Origin: an uncultured SAR116 cluster alpha proteobacterium
GTDB lineage: Bacteria; Pseudomonadota; Alphaproteobacteria; Puniceispirillales; Puniceispirillaceae
Direction: 5' to 3'
DNA length: 64,000 nucleotides
Assembly (NCBI GenBank): GCA_902518965.1
Contig: CABYIQ010000008.1
Span: 1-64,000 of the forward strand
Below are positions 3,281 through 60,904 of this stretch, piece after piece; position 1 is the first letter of the stretch; each line of letters starts with the position of its first letter. Below the pieces are notes generated by a model that was not told the DNA's origin, did no database searches, and saw only the letters and a program-made list of their open reading frames with translations. The position numbers and the translations under genes were made by a program.

Positions 3281-4393
3281 TTATGAATCGAATTCTGCTA
3301 AATCTAGGAGAACTGGATCAGTTCCGGGGCCAATATGTCTTCGCCACATCCAATAGCGTTTCAAGTTCCGCCCACCGGTGCTCCCAGGGCTAAATTCTTC
3401 ACGCCCATGTAAAAAAGCTAAATTATTCATTACTAACAAGTCACCTGGGCGCAGCAATGTCTTGAAGTTCAGATCTGGCCTTTCCAGAACTTCATCCAAA
3501 AAATCTAATGCCTCAATTTGAACGGCACTCAGCGGTTCTCCAGCCATCTCCATACCGGGCGTAATCATTATCCGTGCGTAATGCACCATTAGTTCCCCAT
3601 TTTTAAATTCGAGAATTGGTTTTTGAATGGTTGGGCCTTTTGATGGCCAAACATGGGATTGTGGAGCACGAAAATGATAGGTTTGAAAATAATGAGAAAG
3701 TAAATCTGGGCGCTCATTCATGATTGTTCCCAGGATAGATTGAGCAGAAATAATTGTGCTTTCACCACCTTGGTCTGAAGATTGGTAGCAAAAAAGCCCA
3801 AGGTAACAGGGCGGACGGGGCTCAAGACACCCATTGTCAGAATGTTTTGCTGAACGCTTAGCGCTAGCTCCTATGCGCGTAGGATCTGAATTTGCTGTGC
3901 CTTTATCTGCAACGGTAAAAAGGCGCAAATCATGGTCAATGCCTTGGCGCATAATCTGTCCAAAATAATTACAAATGGCCCAGCCTAGAATTTCGAACTC
4001 TTGCTCTGAGAGAGTCTCCGCTAAGTCTGTGTGGATAACAACAAAACCAAGGCCCTGGTCTAGTCTCTGACGCAGTTCTGGCATTTCTCTTGCCAGTGTT
4101 GGTAGACGAAAATCTTCCTGTGTTATCGTGTTTAGTTTTAGACCGTTAGCACGCACGAACTCTAATGAGCCAATAATTTCATCGCGGACTTGAGGGCTTA
4201 AATGAAAGTGAATGATTTCAGACTTAGCCGTTAAATCTTTGTCACTCCAACACCGTTCAGGCCATTTCTCTTTGGTCTGATTATGAAATTCAACTAGTTC
4301 TTCGTGTGATAGGCAAGTAGCTGTCATGCTATTAGCGTCGAAATCGGGCGATGATGAAAGCGACTCTTTTTGCAATACAAACTCTCTAATCAA
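3281..4393 (-). CDS. TauD/TfdA-family dioxygenase
   Basis: C-terminal LLRPGDLLVMNNLAFLHGREEF..GRNLKRYWMWR typical of TauD-family Fe/2OG oxygenases. Confidence 0.75.
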   Translation of the reverse strand: MIREFVLQKESLSSSPDFDANSMTATCLSHEELVEFHNQTKEKWPERCWSDKDLTAKSEIIHFHLSPQVRDEIIGSLEFVRANGLKLNTITQEDFRLPTLAREMPELRQRLDQGLGFVVIHTDLAETLSEQEFEILGWAICNYFGQIMRQGIDHDLRLFTVADKGTANSDPTRIGASAKRSAKHSDNGCLEPRPPCYLGLFCYQSSDQGGESTIISAQSILGTIMNERPDLLSHYFQTYHFRAPQSHVWPSKGPTIQKPILEFKNGELMVHYARIMITPGMEMAGEPLSAVQIEALDFLDEVLERPDLNFKTLLRPGDLLVMNNLAFLHGREEFSPGSTGGRNLKRYWMWRRHIGPGTDPVLLDLAEFDS

Positions 4394-14046: not shown

Positions 14047-14883
14047 TCAGTTCTCTGAAACTAGTCTTGAATCAAGAAGTTGACCCTCGCGCGCCAGGAT
14101 TGGATAGGCAATTGAGGCGATGTGACTGTTAAATTCTTTAAATGCCAGTCCTGTTTCAAGATGCAAATCACTTGATTCAAGAACTTCTACCCGCCCTTTA
14201 GCCAAGCGTTTCAGATGGCTTTTTCTGCTTTTTCTTTGGCGTAGGGTAAATTCGTTCTTCTCTTCAAGTAATTGCCGCGCAATGCCAACATCACCAGAAA
14301 CCAGAACATTGCCTGCTAAAGAGATATTTGCAATTACCTTGTCGTGCATGCTGCAAAGTTCCGCTAAACCCTCTGAAGAAAAGCGGATACCTTCTCGGTC
14401 TTTGTTTGCGGCAAGCTTTGAAAGTGTCTTTGAAATCACATCTCCTGCTGCTTCAATTGCGATTGCAAATTCAAGAAGGTTGCTCAATTCCTTTCGGTGG
14501 GCATCGTTGCTGTTTTTAATGCTGCTCACACCAGATAGTTCTGATACATAACGCCGCGTCCCATTAAGGGCTTCATTGATGACCAAATCTTTTTTTACAA
14601 CCCTATCCATTTGCTTGACGTCATATTCCTTAAATAATTCCATGATGGGGAGCATCATTTCTTCGGTCAGTAGAAGCATCCTTTGTATTTCACGCCTAAT
14701 ACTCGCAATCGCTACTTCAATATTGTCTAAATTATCGTGATTAATCACAGAACGGTAATGCACTGGCATTTCATCTAAACTCGCTAATTCTTTAGCCATT
14801 AATTTTGAAGCTGCGCGTTCTAAAAGACCACTGAATGGCACAGCCAATAGCAATAATAAATTAAATGCTGTGATGTAGGAAGT
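14047..14883 (-). pseudogene. 5'-truncated Na/Pi-cotransporter family protein (PhoU-like C-terminal part only)
   Basis: Reading upstream of the TTG at 14853 gives SYITAFNLLLLLAVPFSGLLERAAS, the last transmembrane portion, then unrelated sequence and a stop; the transporter core is missing. Confidence 0.65.
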
Positions 14884-15147
14884 ACGCCGCGTGAACTATC
14901 TGAGAATTTTCCCCATTTGGATTTTAATAATTTAGATGAATGCTGGTGGCATCAAGGTGAAAAAGATCACCGCGGCATCTCTGTTGAGCCTGAAGAGGTT
15001 TTGATGGAAAGGGCGAGCAGGTTTTCTGCATATCTAAAGCGCGAAAACATTCACTCAACAGCAATTGTTTCTCATGGTAATTTTATTCGTGCGTTGACTG
15101 GAATAAAACCTAATAATTGTGACATACTTGAGTTTGACCCTCATTAA
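14869..15147 (+). pseudogene. 5'-truncated histidine phosphatase (phosphoglycerate mutase-like) fragment
   Basis: In-frame reading from about 14869: CDVGSTPRELSENFPHLDFNNLDECWWHQGE...IVSHGNFIRALTG; the N-terminal RHG motif half is absent. Confidence 0.65.
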
Positions 15148-15190: not shown

Positions 15191-16693
15191 ATGGAGAAAA
15201 AATATATTTTGGCTATCGACCAGGGGACCACTTCAACCCGGGCGATCATCTTTGACCAGAAGCTCCAACCTCTGGCCACGGCACAAGAAGAGTTTGCTCA
15301 GCACTTTCCACAATCTGGCTGGGTGGAGCATGACCCTGAAGATTTATGGCTAACAACAGTAGCTATGTGTCAGCAGGCATGTGAGCGCGAGAATGTAGAT
15401 CCTGTTCATATTGCTGCTATCGGCATCACTAACCAGCGTGAAACGACGATTGTTTGGAACCGGCATACTGGACGTGCGATATACAATGCCATTGTTTGGC
15501 AGGATCGCCGCACAGCTGATTATTGTCGATTCCTGAAAGAGGCCGGTCATGAACCAGAGGTTACGCGCAAGACAGGGTTGCTACTTGATCCCTATTTTTC
15601 GGCAACAAAGCTGAATTGGATTCTTGAAAATGTAGATGGTGCGCGCGCTGCAGCAGATGCTGGCGATCTTTTATTTGGAACAGTTGATAGTTATCTTATT
15701 TGGAGGCTCACAAACGGGGCCTCGCATGTAACTGACGCAACCAACGCTGCGCGAACCATGATGTACAACATCTCAGAGGGGTGTTGGGATGATGAGCTGT
15801 TGGCGTTGTTCGACATTCCCAAAAAAATGCTGCCACAAGTGCGAGACAGCTCTGGCGATTTTGGTGTGACACGACCTGATTTGTTCAGCGGTTTCAAAAT
15901 TCCCATTTTAGGAGTGGCTGGCGATCAGCAGGCCGCTACCGTCGGTCAGGCCTGTTTTGAGCCTGGCATGGTCAAATCCACCTATGGTACTGGTTGTTTT
16001 GCTCTAATGAATACAGGCAATAAATTGGTTTTTTCCAATAACAAACTGCTTACCACCATTGCATATCAGATTAATGGTGAGCCAGTTTTTGCATTAGAGG
16101 GTTCAATTTTTGTTGCGGGTGCTGTGGTGCAGTGGCTGCGTGATGGGCTGAAAATGATTCAGCACGCCTCTGAGACAAAGGCATTGGCCGAAGCTGCCAG
16201 TGATACAGAACAGGTCTATTTTGTTCCCGCCTTTACTGGCCTTGGGGCGCCCTATTGGAATGCTGATTGCCGTGGTGCTATTTTTGGGCTTACCCGGAAT
16301 ACAGGTCCTGCAGAGATTGCAAAGGCAGCACTTGAAAGTGTGGCTTTTCAGACACGTGATTTGATTGAGGCGATGCGGGAGGATTGGGGAGGGTCTGGTC
16401 AGGCTGTCTTACGAATCGATGGTGGCATGGTTGCAAATGACTGGGCGATGCAGGCGTTGGCTGACCAACTTGGATCTCCTGTTGACCGGCCAACCATTAC
16501 CGAAACAACAGCGGCCGGTGCTGCCTATCTTGCGGGACTGGCTGCAGGTCTCTGTCCAAAGCCGGCAGATTTCGCTCAGCAATGGGTGCTTGAAAAGCGC
16601 TTTGAACCTAGACAGTCTTGTGAACACACAGATACGCTTTATGTAGGATGGCAGCGTGCTGTGGCCCGGTTGCTTCATGACCCAAAAATCTGA
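15191..16693 (+). CDS. glpK: Glycerol kinase
   Basis: [57 protein letters not shown]. Confidence 0.95.
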
Positions 16694-16761
16694 CTGCACC
16701 CTAACAGCAGATAAAGACCGTACTAGATAAGTTCTAAGTAAAAAAGATAGGAACACGTACA

Positions 16762-17343
16762 ATGAGTAACGATCAATTAATGAAACAAGTGTTTATAGAG
16801 GGGCGTACTCATCGTATTTTCAAAGATAGGCCTATTGATGAAAGCTTGCTTCATCGGCTTTATGAATTAGCAAAAATTGCGCCTTCTTCCTCTAATCTTT
16901 GCCCCATGCGAATCTCGTTTGTAGTATCGAAGCAACAAAAGCAAAAGGTGATTGATGCAGCAGCAGAGGGCAATAAACCAAAAATTGAATCAGCACCTGT
17001 GGTAGCCATCGTTGCTCACGACACAAAATTTACCGACCATATTGAAAAATTAGCACCTCATATGAATGCTGAAACCTTTCGGCAGCAAAGTGAGGAAAAA
17101 TTGAAACAAGTTGCAATAGAAAATAGCTGGCTGCAGGCTGGTTTTTTGATTTCAGCAGCGCGCGCCCTTGGTCTTGATTGTGGCCCGATGGGTGGTTTTA
17201 ATAAGGCAATGATAGACAATACTTTTTATAAAGACTCTTCATGGCGCTCTAATTTTTTGATGAACATAGGATATGGTGATGAAACTCAACTGCATCCACG
17301 TGGCCATCGCCTTTCTTTTTATGATGCATGTTCAATTCTTTAA
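16762..17343 (+). CDS. Nitroreductase-family protein, RutE/malonic semialdehyde reductase-like
   Basis: RTHRIFKDRPIDESLLHRLYELAKIAPSSSNLCPMR...AARALGLDCGPMGGF. Confidence 0.8.
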   Translation: MSNDQLMKQVFIEGRTHRIFKDRPIDESLLHRLYELAKIAPSSSNLCPMRISFVVSKQQKQKVIDAAAEGNKPKIESAPVVAIVAHDTKFTDHIEKLAPHMNAETFRQQSEEKLKQVAIENSWLQAGFLISAARALGLDCGPMGGFNKAMIDNTFYKDSSWRSNFLMNIGYGDETQLHPRGHRLSFYDACSIL

Positions 17344-25102: not shown

Positions 25103-26839
25103 ATGGGGGTTGTGATGAATAAACCAGTGGGCCCCGTTCACGATTTAATCATCCGGAATGGTCAAGTTGTTGATGGAACAGGCGCGGAAGGATTTGAAGG
25201 CGATATTGCTATCCGCGACGGTATTATTCAAGAAATTGGCCAAGTTCATGGTCACGGAAAAGAAGAGATTGATGCATCTGGTCACGTTGTAACTCCTGGT
25301 TTTGTAGATATCCATACCCATTATGATGGGCAAGCGATTTGGGATAAACACTTAAAGCCGTCTGCTATCCACGGGGTGACCTCTGTTGTTATGGGTAATT
25401 GTGGAGTTGGGTTTGCTCCTTGCCGTCCGGATGACCGGAACAAGTTGGTCGAGTTGATGGAAGGTGTCGAAGATATTCCGGCTCCTGTGATGCACGAGGG
25501 CCTTGAATGGTCATGGGAAACATTTCCAGAATATCTTGATGCACTGGATCGTGGGCAACGTGATACAGATATTTGTGCGTTGCTCCCTCATGCTGCGGTT
25601 CGAGTGTATGTGATGGGGGATCGGGCGATACGACATGAAGCGGCGACTCCTGAAGATATGGACCAAATGAGAAAATTGGCAGCAGAAGCTTCTCATGCTG
25701 GCGCTTTTGGATTCTCTTCATCACGGACAATTAGTCATAAAAGTAAAAAGGGTGATTTCACTCCTACTTTACGTGCAAATGAGCTTGAACTAACAGCCAT
25801 AGCAAAAGGCTTGGCTGATGCTGGTCATGGGTTTATTGAAATGGTCTCTGATTGGGATGAACCTAGTCCGGAGGAAGAGTTTAAGATGTTCCGCCGCGTT
25901 GTGGAGGCAAGTGGAAGACCTATGGTATTTACCTGTAACCAGCGGCATGATGGGCGCGGCACATTTTGGAAAGACTTAATGACCTATGCAAGAGAAGCAC
26001 GTGATGATGGTCATATCTTAAGACCTGTTGTCGCTCCACGTCCAATCGGCGTAATGCTTGGCCTTAACGGCTCCCAAAACCCGTTTTCTGGAACACCCAC
26101 ATATCGGTCTATTGAGCATTTGCCTCTTGACCAGAGAGTTGAGGCTATGTCTCAACCAAATATACGGACCAAAATTTTGTCAGAAGACCCAGTCAAACAA
26201 AGTACATTCCCACTCATACATCGAATCCTGTTTACACAAATGTTTCGACTTGGTTCTCCAGCTAATTATACACCTTCGCCTGAAGAATCGATTTCAGCTA
26301 TGGCTCAAAACTTAGGCGTGTCTCCACAAGAGATGGCCTATGATATTTTGCTAGAAAATCAAGGACGTGGATTTATATATGCGCCCCTAGTGAATTATGC
26401 GAATTACACAATGGATGCATGTGCAGAAATGCTTGATGACCCATATTGCATAATGGGCCTTGGCGACGGCGGCGCACATGTGGGGTTTATTCTGGATGCT
26501 GGTTACCCAACTTGGTTAATCAGTTATTGGAACCAAAAACAGAAACGTTATTCTGTTGAAGAAACTGTGCGCAGGCTCACTTCTGACACTGCAAAAGCTG
26601 TTGGATTATTCGACCGTGGACGTATTGCGGTGGGGTTAAAAGCTGATTTAAACGTCATTGATTGGTCATCGGTAAGGGCAGGAGATCCTTACCTGATATC
26701 AGACCTTCCTGCTGGCGGCAGTCGCCTGATGCAGGAAGTTTTTGGTTACAAGGCGACAATCCTGTCCGGAGAGCTAACTTATCGTGATGGTGTTGCAACC
26801 GGAGCTACGCCCGGAAAACTTGTTCGAAGTCACGCCTAA
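25103..26839 (+). CDS. N-acyl-D-amino-acid deacylase/D-aminoacylase-like amidohydrolase
   Basis: LIIRNGQVVDGTGAEGFEGDIAIRDG, VTPGFVDIHTHYDGQ, MGNCGVGFAPC, GDGGAHVGFI. Confidence 0.85.
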   Translation: MGVVMNKPVGPVHDLIIRNGQVVDGTGAEGFEGDIAIRDGIIQEIGQVHGHGKEEIDASGHVVTPGFVDIHTHYDGQAIWDKHLKPSAIHGVTSVVMGNCGVGFAPCRPDDRNKLVELMEGVEDIPAPVMHEGLEWSWETFPEYLDALDRGQRDTDICALLPHAAVRVYVMGDRAIRHEAATPEDMDQMRKLAAEASHAGAFGFSSSRTISHKSKKGDFTPTLRANELELTAIAKGLADAGHGFIEMVSDWDEPSPEEEFKMFRRVVEASGRPMVFTCNQRHDGRGTFWKDLMTYAREARDDGHILRPVVAPRPIGVMLGLNGSQNPFSGTPTYRSIEHLPLDQRVEAMSQPNIRTKILSEDPVKQSTFPLIHRILFTQMFRLGSPANYTPSPEESISAMAQNLGVSPQEMAYDILLENQGRGFIYAPLVNYANYTMDACAEMLDDPYCIMGLGDGGAHVGFILDAGYPTWLISYWNQKQKRYSVEETVRRLTSDTAKAVGLFDRGRIAVGLKADLNVIDWSSVRAGDPYLISDLPAGGSRLMQEVFGYKATILSGELTYRDGVATGATPGKLVRSHA

Positions 26840-26982
26840 AAGGCAAAAAGCTTCATTGAAATATGTTGGAGTTTTTTTGAGTGAACGGTTATTATCTTTG
26901 GAAACACTTCCATAGCCTTGAGAGGTGTTTTTTAAAGTAAGAAAATTTTCAATTTTTAACTTAGACTTTCACGCAATCAAGT

Positions 26983-27759
26983 CTACAAATCTCCTAGCTT
27001 TCGCTCCACCCGTAATTCTTGCTGGTGCATCAACTTTTCGGCAAAAGACATATGTTGGGCCATGATCTCCCTAGCCCGTTGGGCATCACCTGTTTCCAGA
27101 GCTTGGAGAAGATTGAGCTGAAACTCACGCCCTTTTGCCCACAGCTCGTGGTTCGGAGGCTCAAAAAGACGCCTTGTCGTTGTCACTTCGGATAAGACCT
27201 CAGCCATAAAGCCAATGATAAAGCCCAGAAGATGATTTTCAGCATGGGCGGCAAGTCTGGCATGAAAGCGAAGAGAGGCTTCGTGGTGGCGTCTGTCATC
27301 TTCCTTGCTCTGCGGTGGTGTCTCATATTCCTCAGTTATGGCCTCAAGTTCCCCTATTGCTGCCGCATCCAGTTTTCCCGCTAGATCAGCCGCAAGCTCC
27401 GGCTCCAGTTGTTTTCGTAACTGATAAATATCACTAATCGTTAGGTGCCTAAAATAGAAATAATTGGATAGCAAAGCACGTGTTCTAGTTTCTGATACTT
27501 CATGAACAAAACATCCACCACCTGGCCCCGTTCTGGTTTTGACAAGCCCTTGTGCTTCTAAAATACGCATTGCTTCGCGAATAGTTCCTTTCGCCATGCC
27601 AAAAAGCGTGATGAGCTCCGCTTCATTTGGCAGTTTGTCACCCGGCTTAAGTGCATTTGATACAACATATCCCTTGATCGCCTCTGCTACTTGCAGCGGT
27701 CGGCTGGCTCGGTTTTCAGCATTATTGTCACTGATTGAGTGGGAAGTGGCATGCGACAT
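26983..27759 (-). CDS. GntR/FadR-type transcriptional regulator
   Basis: HTH: LKPGDKLPNEAELITLFGMAKGTIREAMRILEAQGLVKTRTGPGGGCFV. ORF track begins at 27843; the internal ATG at 27759 is preferred. Confidence 0.85.
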   Translation of the reverse strand: MSHATSHSISDNNAENRASRPLQVAEAIKGYVVSNALKPGDKLPNEAELITLFGMAKGTIREAMRILEAQGLVKTRTGPGGGCFVHEVSETRTRALLSNYFYFRHLTISDIYQLRKQLEPELAADLAGKLDAAAIGELEAITEEYETPPQSKEDDRRHHEASLRFHARLAAHAENHLLGFIIGFMAEVLSEVTTTRRLFEPPNHELWAKGREFQLNLLQALETGDAQRAREIMAQHMSFAEKLMHQQELRVERKLGDL

Positions 27760-41142: not shown

Positions 41143-41262
41143 GTGGAGAGTAGGTCTGCGCTACTATCATGCAACAATTCCAATTAAACTGGCAGTATAG
41201 CTGTAGTTCAATTGGAAATGGTGCTTCAGTGTAGCGCAGACCTACTTCTCAGCCGCACCATT
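41143..41262. repeat. Large imperfect palindrome with a perfect 16-bp arm
   Basis: AGTAGGTCTGCGCTAC (41149-41164) / GTAGCGCAGACCTACT (41231-41246), with a second inner stem ATTCCAATTAAACT / AGTTCAATTGGAAAT. Confidence 0.8.
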
Positions 41263-41412
41263 ACCTTACTCATCGTACCCACGATACCCACGTCAACCCA
41301 CTATTATCCCGAGCTTTTCGGTGTGTAACTGACTGGGTGGGTTTGCTGTTGAATAACTTTATAGTCATATCTTTCAACATGCCTCGTCCTAACTCCCAGT
41401 TCGCTTGCAAGG

Positions 41413-45189: not shown

Positions 45190-45204
45190 CCCTTCACCCG
45201 CTCC
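45190..45204 (+). mobile_element. tRNA-Gly 3'-end attachment remnant
   Basis: CCCTTCACCCGCTCC, identical to the 3' end of the tRNA-Gly gene (reverse complement 60831-60845). Confidence 0.7.
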
Positions 45205-45361
45205 AATTTCCAAGACAAAAGGTCCGTGGACCGCGGTACAAGTTACTGTTTCCAAACAGCTTATGCTTCGGAGCAAGAATCAGCTTTATGTCTGTGCGGG
45301 TAAGGTTGCAGGCAAGCTTGAGTAGGAACGCCGTGCTACTAGCGTCCGCCTAAAGGGGGTT

Positions 45362-52541: not shown

Positions 52542-52584
52542 TAAACAAAATTACCTTCCTCTAAAATAGCCTAAATATCACAGG

Positions 52585-52690
52585 ACCGCGCAGCAACAGC
52601 CCCCACCCCCCGAACAAAAACCATAGCTGATTGCCAAAGGCAATCAGTAACCCCGGTCCGTGGTCCACGGACCTTAGAACTGGGTTCAGG
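52585..52690 (-). repeat. Dispersed repeat family A, copy (minus orientation)
   Basis: CAGCAACAGCCCCCACCCCCCGAACAAAAACCATAGCTGATTGCCAAAGGCAATCAGTAACCCCGGTCCGTGGTCCACGGACC; contains two palindromes. Confidence 0.7.
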
Positions 52691-52798
52691 CAAGGTTGCG
52701 GGTAAGGTTTTGATAGTTGACCATATGGGCTAATATGCTAAGCTATTGATATAGCTGGATTCAGTCACAAATTGGCGCGTGTGTTAGGCTTCGAACTT

Positions 52799-52813
52799 CC
52801 CTTCACCCGCTCC
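52799..52813 (+). mobile_element. tRNA-Gly 3'-end attachment remnant
   Basis: CCCTTCACCCGCTCC preceded by element-end sequence ATGCTAAGCTATTGATATAG (52734 onward) and followed by an integrase fragment. Confidence 0.75.
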
Positions 52814-52879
52814 AAATCATCAATCACATGATGTGTATCTCATTGAAATGTAAGCATGTGCTATGTTTGCAGGAGATGA

Positions 52880-53101
52880 GTGATGTACAAAGTGATGTAC
52901 AATTCCAATGCCCATTACGTGTCATGCAGGGCTGGTATCTATTACTACACAAGACGTGTTCCTATTGATGTAAGACAGTATTATGCCTCCCCTCGCCTAT
53001 CCTTTAGTCTGAGAACCAAGTCATATTCCGGGGCTGTTCGTGCAGCTCGGTCAGTGACACAGCGTTTTGAGGATTTTACGAGCATTAGACATGTCTTTTG
53101 A
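52880..53101 (+). pseudogene. N-terminal fragment of a tyrosine integrase
   Basis: AGIYYYTRRVPIDVRQYYASPRLSFSLRTKSYSGAVRAARSVTQRFEDF parallels NGIYYYSRRVPADLHKRFNKDRVIISLRTRSQDKALRSAQTLSDRLERY of the intact integrase; catalytic domain absent. Confidence 0.8.
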
Positions 53102-59249: not shown

Positions 59250-59415
59250 CACGGTCCGACGTCTCTGCCAACCCATCGTAGAACCGCAGTCCGTGAGCCG
59301 CAGACCGCGCAACCACAGCCCTCACCCCCTCAAACAAACCTAGAGCTGGTTGCCAAAGCCAATCAGTAACCCCCGTTTCGAGGTTCGCGAGCCGCGAAAC
59401 TCGGAACTGGGCTGT
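59250..59415 (-). repeat. Dispersed repeat family A, copy (minus orientation)
   Basis: Reverse complement GGGGGTTACTGATTGGCTTTGGCAACCAGCTCTAGGTTTGTTTGAGGGGGTGAGGGCTGTGGTTGCGCGGTCTGCGGCTCACGGACTGCGGTTCTACGATGGGTTGGCAGAG. Confidence 0.75.
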
Positions 59416-59527
59416 TATCCAAACTGTTATCCAGAATAAGGCACTTTACCTTTAGTGCGGATGTGCTAAGCTATTGATATAGTTGAAAGTCAGGTATCTT
59501 TTGGTGCATGGGTAGGGCGTCGAACCT

Positions 59528-59586
59528 CCCTTCACCCGCTCCAAAACTACCAAGATCCAAGGTGCAAGTGCCTGATTTTCAAGCAT
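59528..59586 (+). repeat. 59-bp inverted repeat, left copy (tRNA-Gly 3' end plus attachment arm)
   Basis: CCCTTCACCCGCTCCAAAACTACCAAGATCCAAGGTGCAAGTGCCTGATTTTCAAGCAT; exact reverse complement of 60787-60845. Confidence 0.95.
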
Positions 59587-60778
59587 GCTGGTTCTGCGTC
59601 TCGGGTTCTAGAACCTCGATCCTTTTTAGCCATTTCTGCTTCACCTTTAGGTCATATCCAAGCCCATATTTTTGACCAATATGGGTTGTTGCCCAACCCC
59701 CCAAGGAATCCACGATATCAGAAGGGCACTCTATATTTCGAAGTCTGTCCCGGAAACTGTGCCTGAATGAGTGTACCACACACCCATCAGGAACTCTTGG
59801 CTTTAGCCACTTGTTGATAGCGGCACTAGCGGAGTTTGAATTCAGTTCCTTGTCCCTTATGTAACTTGGGAAGGCAAACTCGTGGTTCGAATTGACTATG
59901 CGTTTTGCAGCCCAAAGCGACGCGCCAACAAGGGGTATTTGTCTTTCACTGCTCTTGGTTTTCAAAGGTCGCCATGGATATGCTAGAAGATTTACATGGG
60001 GGATGTCACTGTTAACACTGATATCTTTTACGTGAAGCCCTGCCGCTTCAGATAAACGCATTCCAGTATCGCTTATTAGGGCAATCAGCCAGCGGTTGTC
60101 GTCATCAATATCCATGCATTCAGTTTGAAGGTTGTGAATGAATGGCAATGGAATAGGCAATCTTCTTTTGGTTGCAAAATCGTCAGGAATAAAAGTAGCA
60201 GCGAATGGGTTGTTGCAATTAAGCCCTCGTTCTTTTATCGCCAGATTCAAAATTGATTTAATGCAGGAGAATATTCGTCTAACCGAAGATGAAGTAAGGC
60301 CTTTTGAAAATAGATGCTCTCTGAAGGCTGAAGCATCGCTGAAGGTGAGGGCTGTTATTTCAGCTGCAGGTGCTGTTTCTTTTAGGTAGGTAACTGCGCG
60401 ATGTGCAACTTGGAAAAAAGTCTTCCTGCGTCCACCACCTTTCAACGATAGATAAAGTTCTAAGGCATCATCGAGTGTGAAGTTAGACTGTGGTGAAGAC
60501 GCTGGTAGGTTTTGGCGGACATAAAGGCCAAGTTCCCTGCTATGAAAAAGCTCAAGTCGTAAGCTTTCCCAATACCTTTCCAATCTATCTGAAAGCGTTT
60601 GTGCCGAACGCAACGCTTTGTCCTGCGACCTCGTTCGCAGGGATATGATCACGCGGTCTTTGTTGAAACGCTTATGAAGGTCTGCCGGAACACGACGAGA
60701 GTAGTAATAGATGCCATTACGGCTGATTAAATAGGAGCTATTCTGGATCACAGTTTGGTACACACTTCCTGACGTCAA
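59579..60778 (-). CDS. Tyrosine recombinase/phage-type integrase, apparently intact
   Basis: Catalytic residues recognisable: DTGMRLSEAAGL (Arg), VHSFRHSFRDRL (His-x-x-Arg), GGWATTHIGQKYG (Trp/His and Tyr). Start codon uncertain (TTG at 60778 or GTG at 60763). Confidence 0.95.
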   Translation of the reverse strand: MTSGSVYQTVIQNSSYLISRNGIYYYSRRVPADLHKRFNKDRVIISLRTRSQDKALRSAQTLSDRLERYWESLRLELFHSRELGLYVRQNLPASSPQSNFTLDDALELYLSLKGGGRRKTFFQVAHRAVTYLKETAPAAEITALTFSDASAFREHLFSKGLTSSSVRRIFSCIKSILNLAIKERGLNCNNPFAATFIPDDFATKRRLPIPLPFIHNLQTECMDIDDDNRWLIALISDTGMRLSEAAGLHVKDISVNSDIPHVNLLAYPWRPLKTKSSERQIPLVGASLWAAKRIVNSNHEFAFPSYIRDKELNSNSASAAINKWLKPRVPDGCVVHSFRHSFRDRLRNIECPSDIVDSLGGWATTHIGQKYGLGYDLKVKQKWLKRIEVLEPETQNQHA

Positions 60779-60786
60779 ACATTAAA

Positions 60787-60845
60787 ATGCTTGAAAATCA
60801 GGCACTTGCACCTTGGATCTTGGTAGTTTTGGAGCGGGTGAAGGG
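60787..60845 (-). repeat. 59-bp inverted repeat, right copy, overlapping the tRNA-Gly 3' end
   Basis: Exact reverse complement of 59528-59586. Confidence 0.95.
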
Positions 60846-60904
60846 ATTCGAACCCTCGACCCCAACCTTGGCAAGGTTGTGCTCTACCCCTGAGCTACAC
60901 CCGC
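60830..60904 (-). tRNA. tRNA-Gly (anticodon GCC), CCA encoded
   Basis: GCGGGTGTAGCTCAGGGGTAGAGCACAACCTTGCCAAGGTTGGGGTCGAGGGTTCGAATCCCTTCACCCGCTCCA folds as a cloverleaf. Confidence 0.97.

Follow-up and report, generated by a model that had tools for sequence, protein, structure and literature searches.

Integrative elements in tRNA genes that carry an inverted second copy of their attachment site

The lambda-type integrative islands and prophages found in tRNA genes (P4-like islands, ICEs, tycheposons) share a tyrosine integrase with an extra N-terminal domain, insertion at the tRNA 3' end, direct attL/attR core repeats, paired arm-type sites on both sides of the core, and variable cargo. The elements analyzed here have the same traits, but also contain a second, inverted copy of the P arm and core inside the element, and, to our knowledge, no such part has been described for these islands, nor was one found in the papers retrieved. 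The yeast 2-micron family plasmids (FLP/FRT) are small elements with a tyrosine recombinase and two long identical inverted repeats, each with a recombination target; in contrast, the present elements are integrated in tRNA genes, their sites are asymmetric, no replication gene was seen in the cargo examined, and no homology was detected as far as tested. The strand-biased circularizing SE elements (PMC9345347) are marine tyrosine-recombinase elements of about 7 kb with inverted motifs at their ends. However, SEs have two recombinases and 19-bp imperfect terminal core motifs, and tRNA is not mentioned in that paper, whereas two complete elements of the present family, L129 and L177 (loci are numbered with the prefix L, genomes with G), have a single integrase and direct tRNA cores at both ends, together with an internal inverted site. 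The pTN3 integrase of Thermococcus, which also targets a tRNA gene, was shown to invert DNA between inverted att sites (PMC5495485), but there the inverted sites are separate chromosomal copies, while here the inverted pair is built into each element. Finally, in CTX-phi and integron cassettes inverted att-like sequences belong to the mobile DNA and fold from single strands with short loops; here the arms are 1.2-5 kb apart and double-stranded attL and attR exist. Literature searches found neither DUF6538 integrases nor an inverted internal att copy in such elements, although most subscription journals and all bioRxiv preprints were outside their coverage, and the family is thus only apparently undescribed.

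The inverted repeat behind tRNA-Gly

The analyzed window is a stretch of 64,000 nt, the contig CABYIQ010000008.1 (C8) from its first base, in the assembly GCA_902518965.1 of an uncultured SAR116 cluster alphaproteobacterium (1.94 Mb, 70 contigs, 76% complete). The initial annotation described an integrase gene enclosed by perfect 59-bp inverted repeats containing the tRNA-Gly 3' end. This observation proved correct, the repeat being one base longer: 59527-59586 is the reverse complement of 60787-60846 (60/60 nt), with 1200 nt between the copies. A perfect 60-nt repeat at this spacing cannot arise by chance. The features of the locus and of the related remnants on the same contig are as follows.

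60830-60904, minus strand: tRNA-Gly(GCC), identified by ARAGORN, the integration target; its last 17 nt (60830-60846) are the core O shared by all att copies and fall within the repeat
60787-60829, minus strand: arm between the tRNA end and int; with O it forms the tRNA-side repeat (attL: tRNA-O-arm)
60744-60764, minus strand: P' pair of tandem 12-bp arm-type sites inferred from sequence (TGTGTACCA-AAC-TGTGATCCA), overlapping the 5' end of int and wholly outside the inverted repeat; matches the P pair at 19/20 positions and was also recovered in the repeat search of the window
59579-60778, minus strand: tyrosine integrase of 399 aa with DUF6538, Phage_int_SAM_5 (core-binding) and Phage_integrase (catalytic) domains; R241, K273, H336, R339, W362 and Y371 intact
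59544-59586, plus strand: inverted copy of the arm (arm'), overlapping the last 8 nt of int
59527-59543, plus strand: inverted core O' (TCCCTTCACCCGCTCCA)
59413-59433, plus strand: P pair of tandem 12-bp arm-type sites inferred from sequence (TGTTATCCA-AAC-TGTTATCCA), about 101 nt before O'
59303-59526, plus strand: X, the P arm side of the internal inverted attR-like site; similar to 52584-52797 (direct repeats, 78-84%)
52584-52816, plus strand: second X-O unit in the same orientation as the X-O at 59.3-59.5 kb, a remnant of a related element
52904-53080, plus strand: N-terminal fragment of a related integrase next to that X-O unit, with its own P' pair just upstream (TGATGTACAAAGTGATGTACA)
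45190-45206, plus strand: third inverted copy of the tRNA-Gly core O

The overlap of the last 8 nt of the integrase ORF with the repeat, noted in the initial annotation, was confirmed. In an alignment of 20 homologues all catalytic residues (R-K-H-R-(H/W)-Y) are invariant. On this contig the core O occurs at 45190, 52798 and 59527 in one orientation and at the tRNA in the other. No direct partner of the tRNA copy was found on the contig; the distal attR is lost or lies beyond the contig end at window base 1. X-like sequence precedes the O copies at 52798 and 59527. In addition, a tRNA-Leu(GAG)-type core and arm at 41245-41347 is 96% identical over 103 nt to the attL of a second integrase of the same genome (see below), and is preceded by a 42-nt imperfect hairpin (41149-41246) instead of a tRNA body. 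The region from 41 to 61 kb is thus an island that has taken several related elements and is partly decayed, whereas the integrase itself is intact.

Distribution and anatomy of the elements

The second integrase of this genome (50% identical), behind tRNA-Leu on contig C25, has a perfect 38-nt inverted repeat whose second arm is the very end of the contig. Of 61 genomes searched (this one and 60 relatives), 50 have the integrase. The surroundings of homologues were collected from the relatives, from some 80,000 named genomes, from viral contigs, and from a broad class and order sample. The homologues are mostly from SAR116-cluster marine alphaproteobacteria. After removal of duplicates, 137 integrases remained: 99 have an inverted repeat around int, 22 are cut by contig ends, and 16 have no detectable repeat, so that the repeat is present in 86% of 115 untruncated loci. 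The loci include finished or single-contig genomes (Ruegeria sp. TM1040, G037, G020 and G013), and this recurrence in many independent assemblies, at the same place relative to tRNA and integrase, rules out an assembly artefact, the possibility raised beforehand as a refutation. Among 74 tRNA-linked repeats, 34 are 100% identical and 56 at least 97% identical, with a median length of 83 nt; in 54 of 74 the repeat begins 14-17 nt inside the tRNA 3' end. The targets are 16 kinds of tRNA gene by anticodon; they are Gly, Leu, Arg, Thr, Phe, Asn, Ser and selenocysteine tRNAs, the last at 7871-7967 of L218 (genome G254). In L216 (IMCC14465, G209), a 48-nt exact direct copy of the 3' part of tRNA-Arg (1327-1374 and 3879-3926) lies between tRNA and integrase, much longer than the usual 14-17 nt core.

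Outside the SAR116 order the close homologue is rare (5 genomes in a class sample of 385, which also held five genomes of its own order), but 5 of 6 such loci show the same inverted repeat. DUF6538 integrases only about 25% identical did not show it within 1.5-kb flanks; the layout therefore appears specific to this clade rather than general for DUF6538 integrases, though short flanks could hide long elements. In two incomplete SAR116 single-cell genomes, G023 and G033, 24 and 26 matches to this integrase family were found, respectively, many of them fragments, indicating extreme proliferation.

Complete elements explain the repeat. Their plan is tRNA-O-P'-int-(cargo)-arm'-O'-X-cargo-X'-O-flank, where the outer direct O copies are ordinary attL (tRNA-O-P') and attR (P-O-flank), the latter 4-13 kb further on, and X-O is an inverted copy of the attR half (P arm plus core). 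In L079 (G037, a single-contig genome) tRNA-Thr ends in CTCCGCCAGCACCA (O), and 6.7 kb downstream the same O occurs in direct orientation, preceded by X' and followed by ordinary flank. X' is the inverted copy (435 nt, 97.9%) of X, which directly follows the inverted O' beyond int. When related genomes, one per species, were searched for the empty site of this element, the tRNA matched but the joined flank did not. The same plan holds in L129 (4.1 kb, tRNA-Gly), L177 (Rhodobacteraceae isolate IMCC1909, 9.06 kb, tRNA-Ser, X 745 nt at 99.1%), L069, L070 and L092. In the finished megaplasmid of Ruegeria sp. TM1040 (NC_008043, L265), the element runs from tRNA-Phe at 14844-14918 to a direct O at 27655-27671, with an arm repeat of 85/85 nt and an X repeat of 1148/1148 nt. 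The same BRO-family gene (WP_011537156.1) is present, identical, once in each X copy (16490-17065 and 26834-27409), with a type I restriction-modification system between them; a further 147-nt inverted stretch (17389-17535/24668-24814, 97%) suggests that the repeat was once longer. Tandem elements share one array, X1'-O-arm2-int2 (L069, L092, L070, L101). L097 (G013, contig C1, 1653-1671 kb region) keeps O', X and X' (383 nt, 100%), but its arms no longer match, as if one arm had been exchanged with another element; a 931-nt perfect inverted repeat (269-1199 and 3301-4231) lies further out in this island. A search of the cargo for defense systems gave weak and varied hits only.

Comparison of the P side (X) with the start of int revealed a tandem pair with a 12-bp period, for instance GGTAGACCAAACGGTAGACC in L129 and TGATGTACAAACTGATGTAC in L073. 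In 41 elements, the pair lies a median 113 nt before O (interquartile 111-115) and again a median 65 nt after it, overlapping or just before the int start codon. This is the geometry of the P and P' arm-type sites of a lambda-type attP, and their binding by integrase is inferred by analogy. In the inverted internal copy the repeat ends inside or before the P' pair: the second P' repeat is intact in 39 of 41 attL sites but in 3 of 41 internal sites, while the first is kept in 27 of 41. The internal site is therefore P-O without a full P', and resembles attR rather than attP.

Predicted recombination and competing readings

The initial annotation proposed that inverted attachment repeats should lead to inversion rather than excision, and that the locus could be an ON/OFF switch for the integrase or a dead-end recombination product. 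This interpretation is supported only in part. The repeats are indeed attachment-site copies in inverted orientation around the integrase, and recombination between them would invert the segment. However, the layout is not a lone cassette or a dead-end product but the standard one of a whole integrase clade, the mobile unit is larger than the cassette, and the two inverted sites are not equivalent. Moreover, a freely reversible switch predicts both orientations, whereas int starts next to the tRNA and points away from it in 97 loci and points towards it in only two. In one of these, L085, int points at tRNA-Arg, and the flipped layout has a full P-O-P' before int and a bare tRNA-O opposite. 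The other, L166, has a perfect 108-nt inverted repeat, but its contig begins at the arm and may reflect an assembly choice, and no second junction was found in its genome; thus we do not accept it as proof of inversion.

We suggest, with moderate confidence, that the locus is the tRNA-proximal part of an integrative element of a distinct DUF6538-integrase family. The architecture of the elements is demonstrated by the sequence comparisons; inversion and its purpose, as well as excision and the circular form, are inferred from sequence alone. Given its outer ends, a complete element should excise and integrate as a circle by lambda-type recombination. With attL and an inverted attR-like site, integrase could only invert the piece between them, giving tRNA-O without P' (attB-like) at the tRNA and a full P-O-P' (attP) on the far side. 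For lambda-type integrases attP x attB is the reaction that needs no excisionase, so the flipped state should return. Further, a circle made by attL x attR would have one complete attP, the one before int, and re-integration would always put int next to the tRNA. In this model, both effects predict the observed orientation bias. On the other hand, no gene recognizable as an excisionase was seen in the cargo examined, although attL x attR recombination normally needs one, X repeats of 0.4-1.1 kb are longer than an att site requires, and 16 untruncated loci lack a detectable repeat. The internal site may act as a nearby competitor of the distant attR that diverts excision into a reversible flip, or serve a step of the transposition cycle. 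In the window, where the distal attR is missing from the contig, inversion would be the only att reaction still visible.

Several other readings appear unlikely. A phase-variable switch, read from the tRNA promoter in one orientation and silent in the other, agrees with the inverted core copies around int and with the two flipped cases, but is only weakly supported in view of the 97 to 2 bias and the non-equivalent sites. A copy-number device, in which the excised circle carries two long inverted repeats with a recombinase target in each and inversion during replication turns it into a multi-copy producer, as in the 2-micron plasmid, is similarly doubtful. The plan is closely similar (a 4-13 kb element, a tyrosine recombinase gene in one unique segment, near-perfect inverted repeats of up to 1148 nt, and concerted identity of the two copies), but no replication gene was found in the cargo examined, which did not cover every element, the two sites differ in P', and the elements are found integrated, with close homologues rare among viral, phage and plasmid records; a search of viral contigs for circular forms gave only a few true homologues.

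Slightly less improbable, but still unlikely, is a functionless passenger, that is, an old inverted duplication of the att region kept identical by gene conversion. The X repeats extend far beyond the arm-type sites and include coding sequence in TM1040, and arms and X are homogenized within each element although they differ between elements. Against this, retention in 86% of untruncated loci across integrases only about 40-60% identical, and the constant truncation of P' in the internal copy, argue for selection or for regeneration in every cycle. Single-strand folding, with the arms pairing to rebuild a double-stranded att site as in CTX-phi or integron cassettes, seems still less probable: the perfect arms could form a long stem and a strand-specific reaction would also give a fixed orientation, but the loop is 1.2-5 kb, complete elements already have ordinary double-stranded attL and attR, and no single-strand transfer or packaging gene was seen in the cargo examined. 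Finally, the mobile unit could be the integrase cassette alone, bounded by terminal inverted repeats like an insertion sequence, with X and cargo belonging to the host, since only the cassette is visible in the window and in many contigs cut at the arm. This is rejected by the complete elements, in every one of which X is repeated with the core at the far end in direct att orientation, and by the arm-type sites that X carries at a fixed distance from O.

Meaning of the internal site for the family

The near-perfect identity of repeats of up to 1.15 kb shows that the two copies are homogenized or remade often. A more far-reaching possibility, which we advance only tentatively, is that this large family has a built-in, direction-biased inversion device: integrase would flip its own gene between attL/attR-like and attB-like/attP states, and this flip, or a 2-micron-like amplification built on it, would be a regular step of the cycle of the element that also keeps the inverted repeats identical.

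The TM1040 and IMCC1909 elements reside in isolates and are therefore accessible to bench work. The inverted sites may also help explain broken contigs at such islands in SAGs and MAGs, since many contigs end at or near the arms. Integrative elements are usually presented as attL-cargo-attR with direct repeats, whereas here a whole clade, abundant in SAR116 and other marine alphaproteobacteria, carries an inverted attR-like site as a fixed part. If active, this site would link excision control, inversion, and concerted evolution in one enzyme system, and would provide a recombination tool with a predicted directional bias (inversion from attB-like/attP to attL/attR-like).
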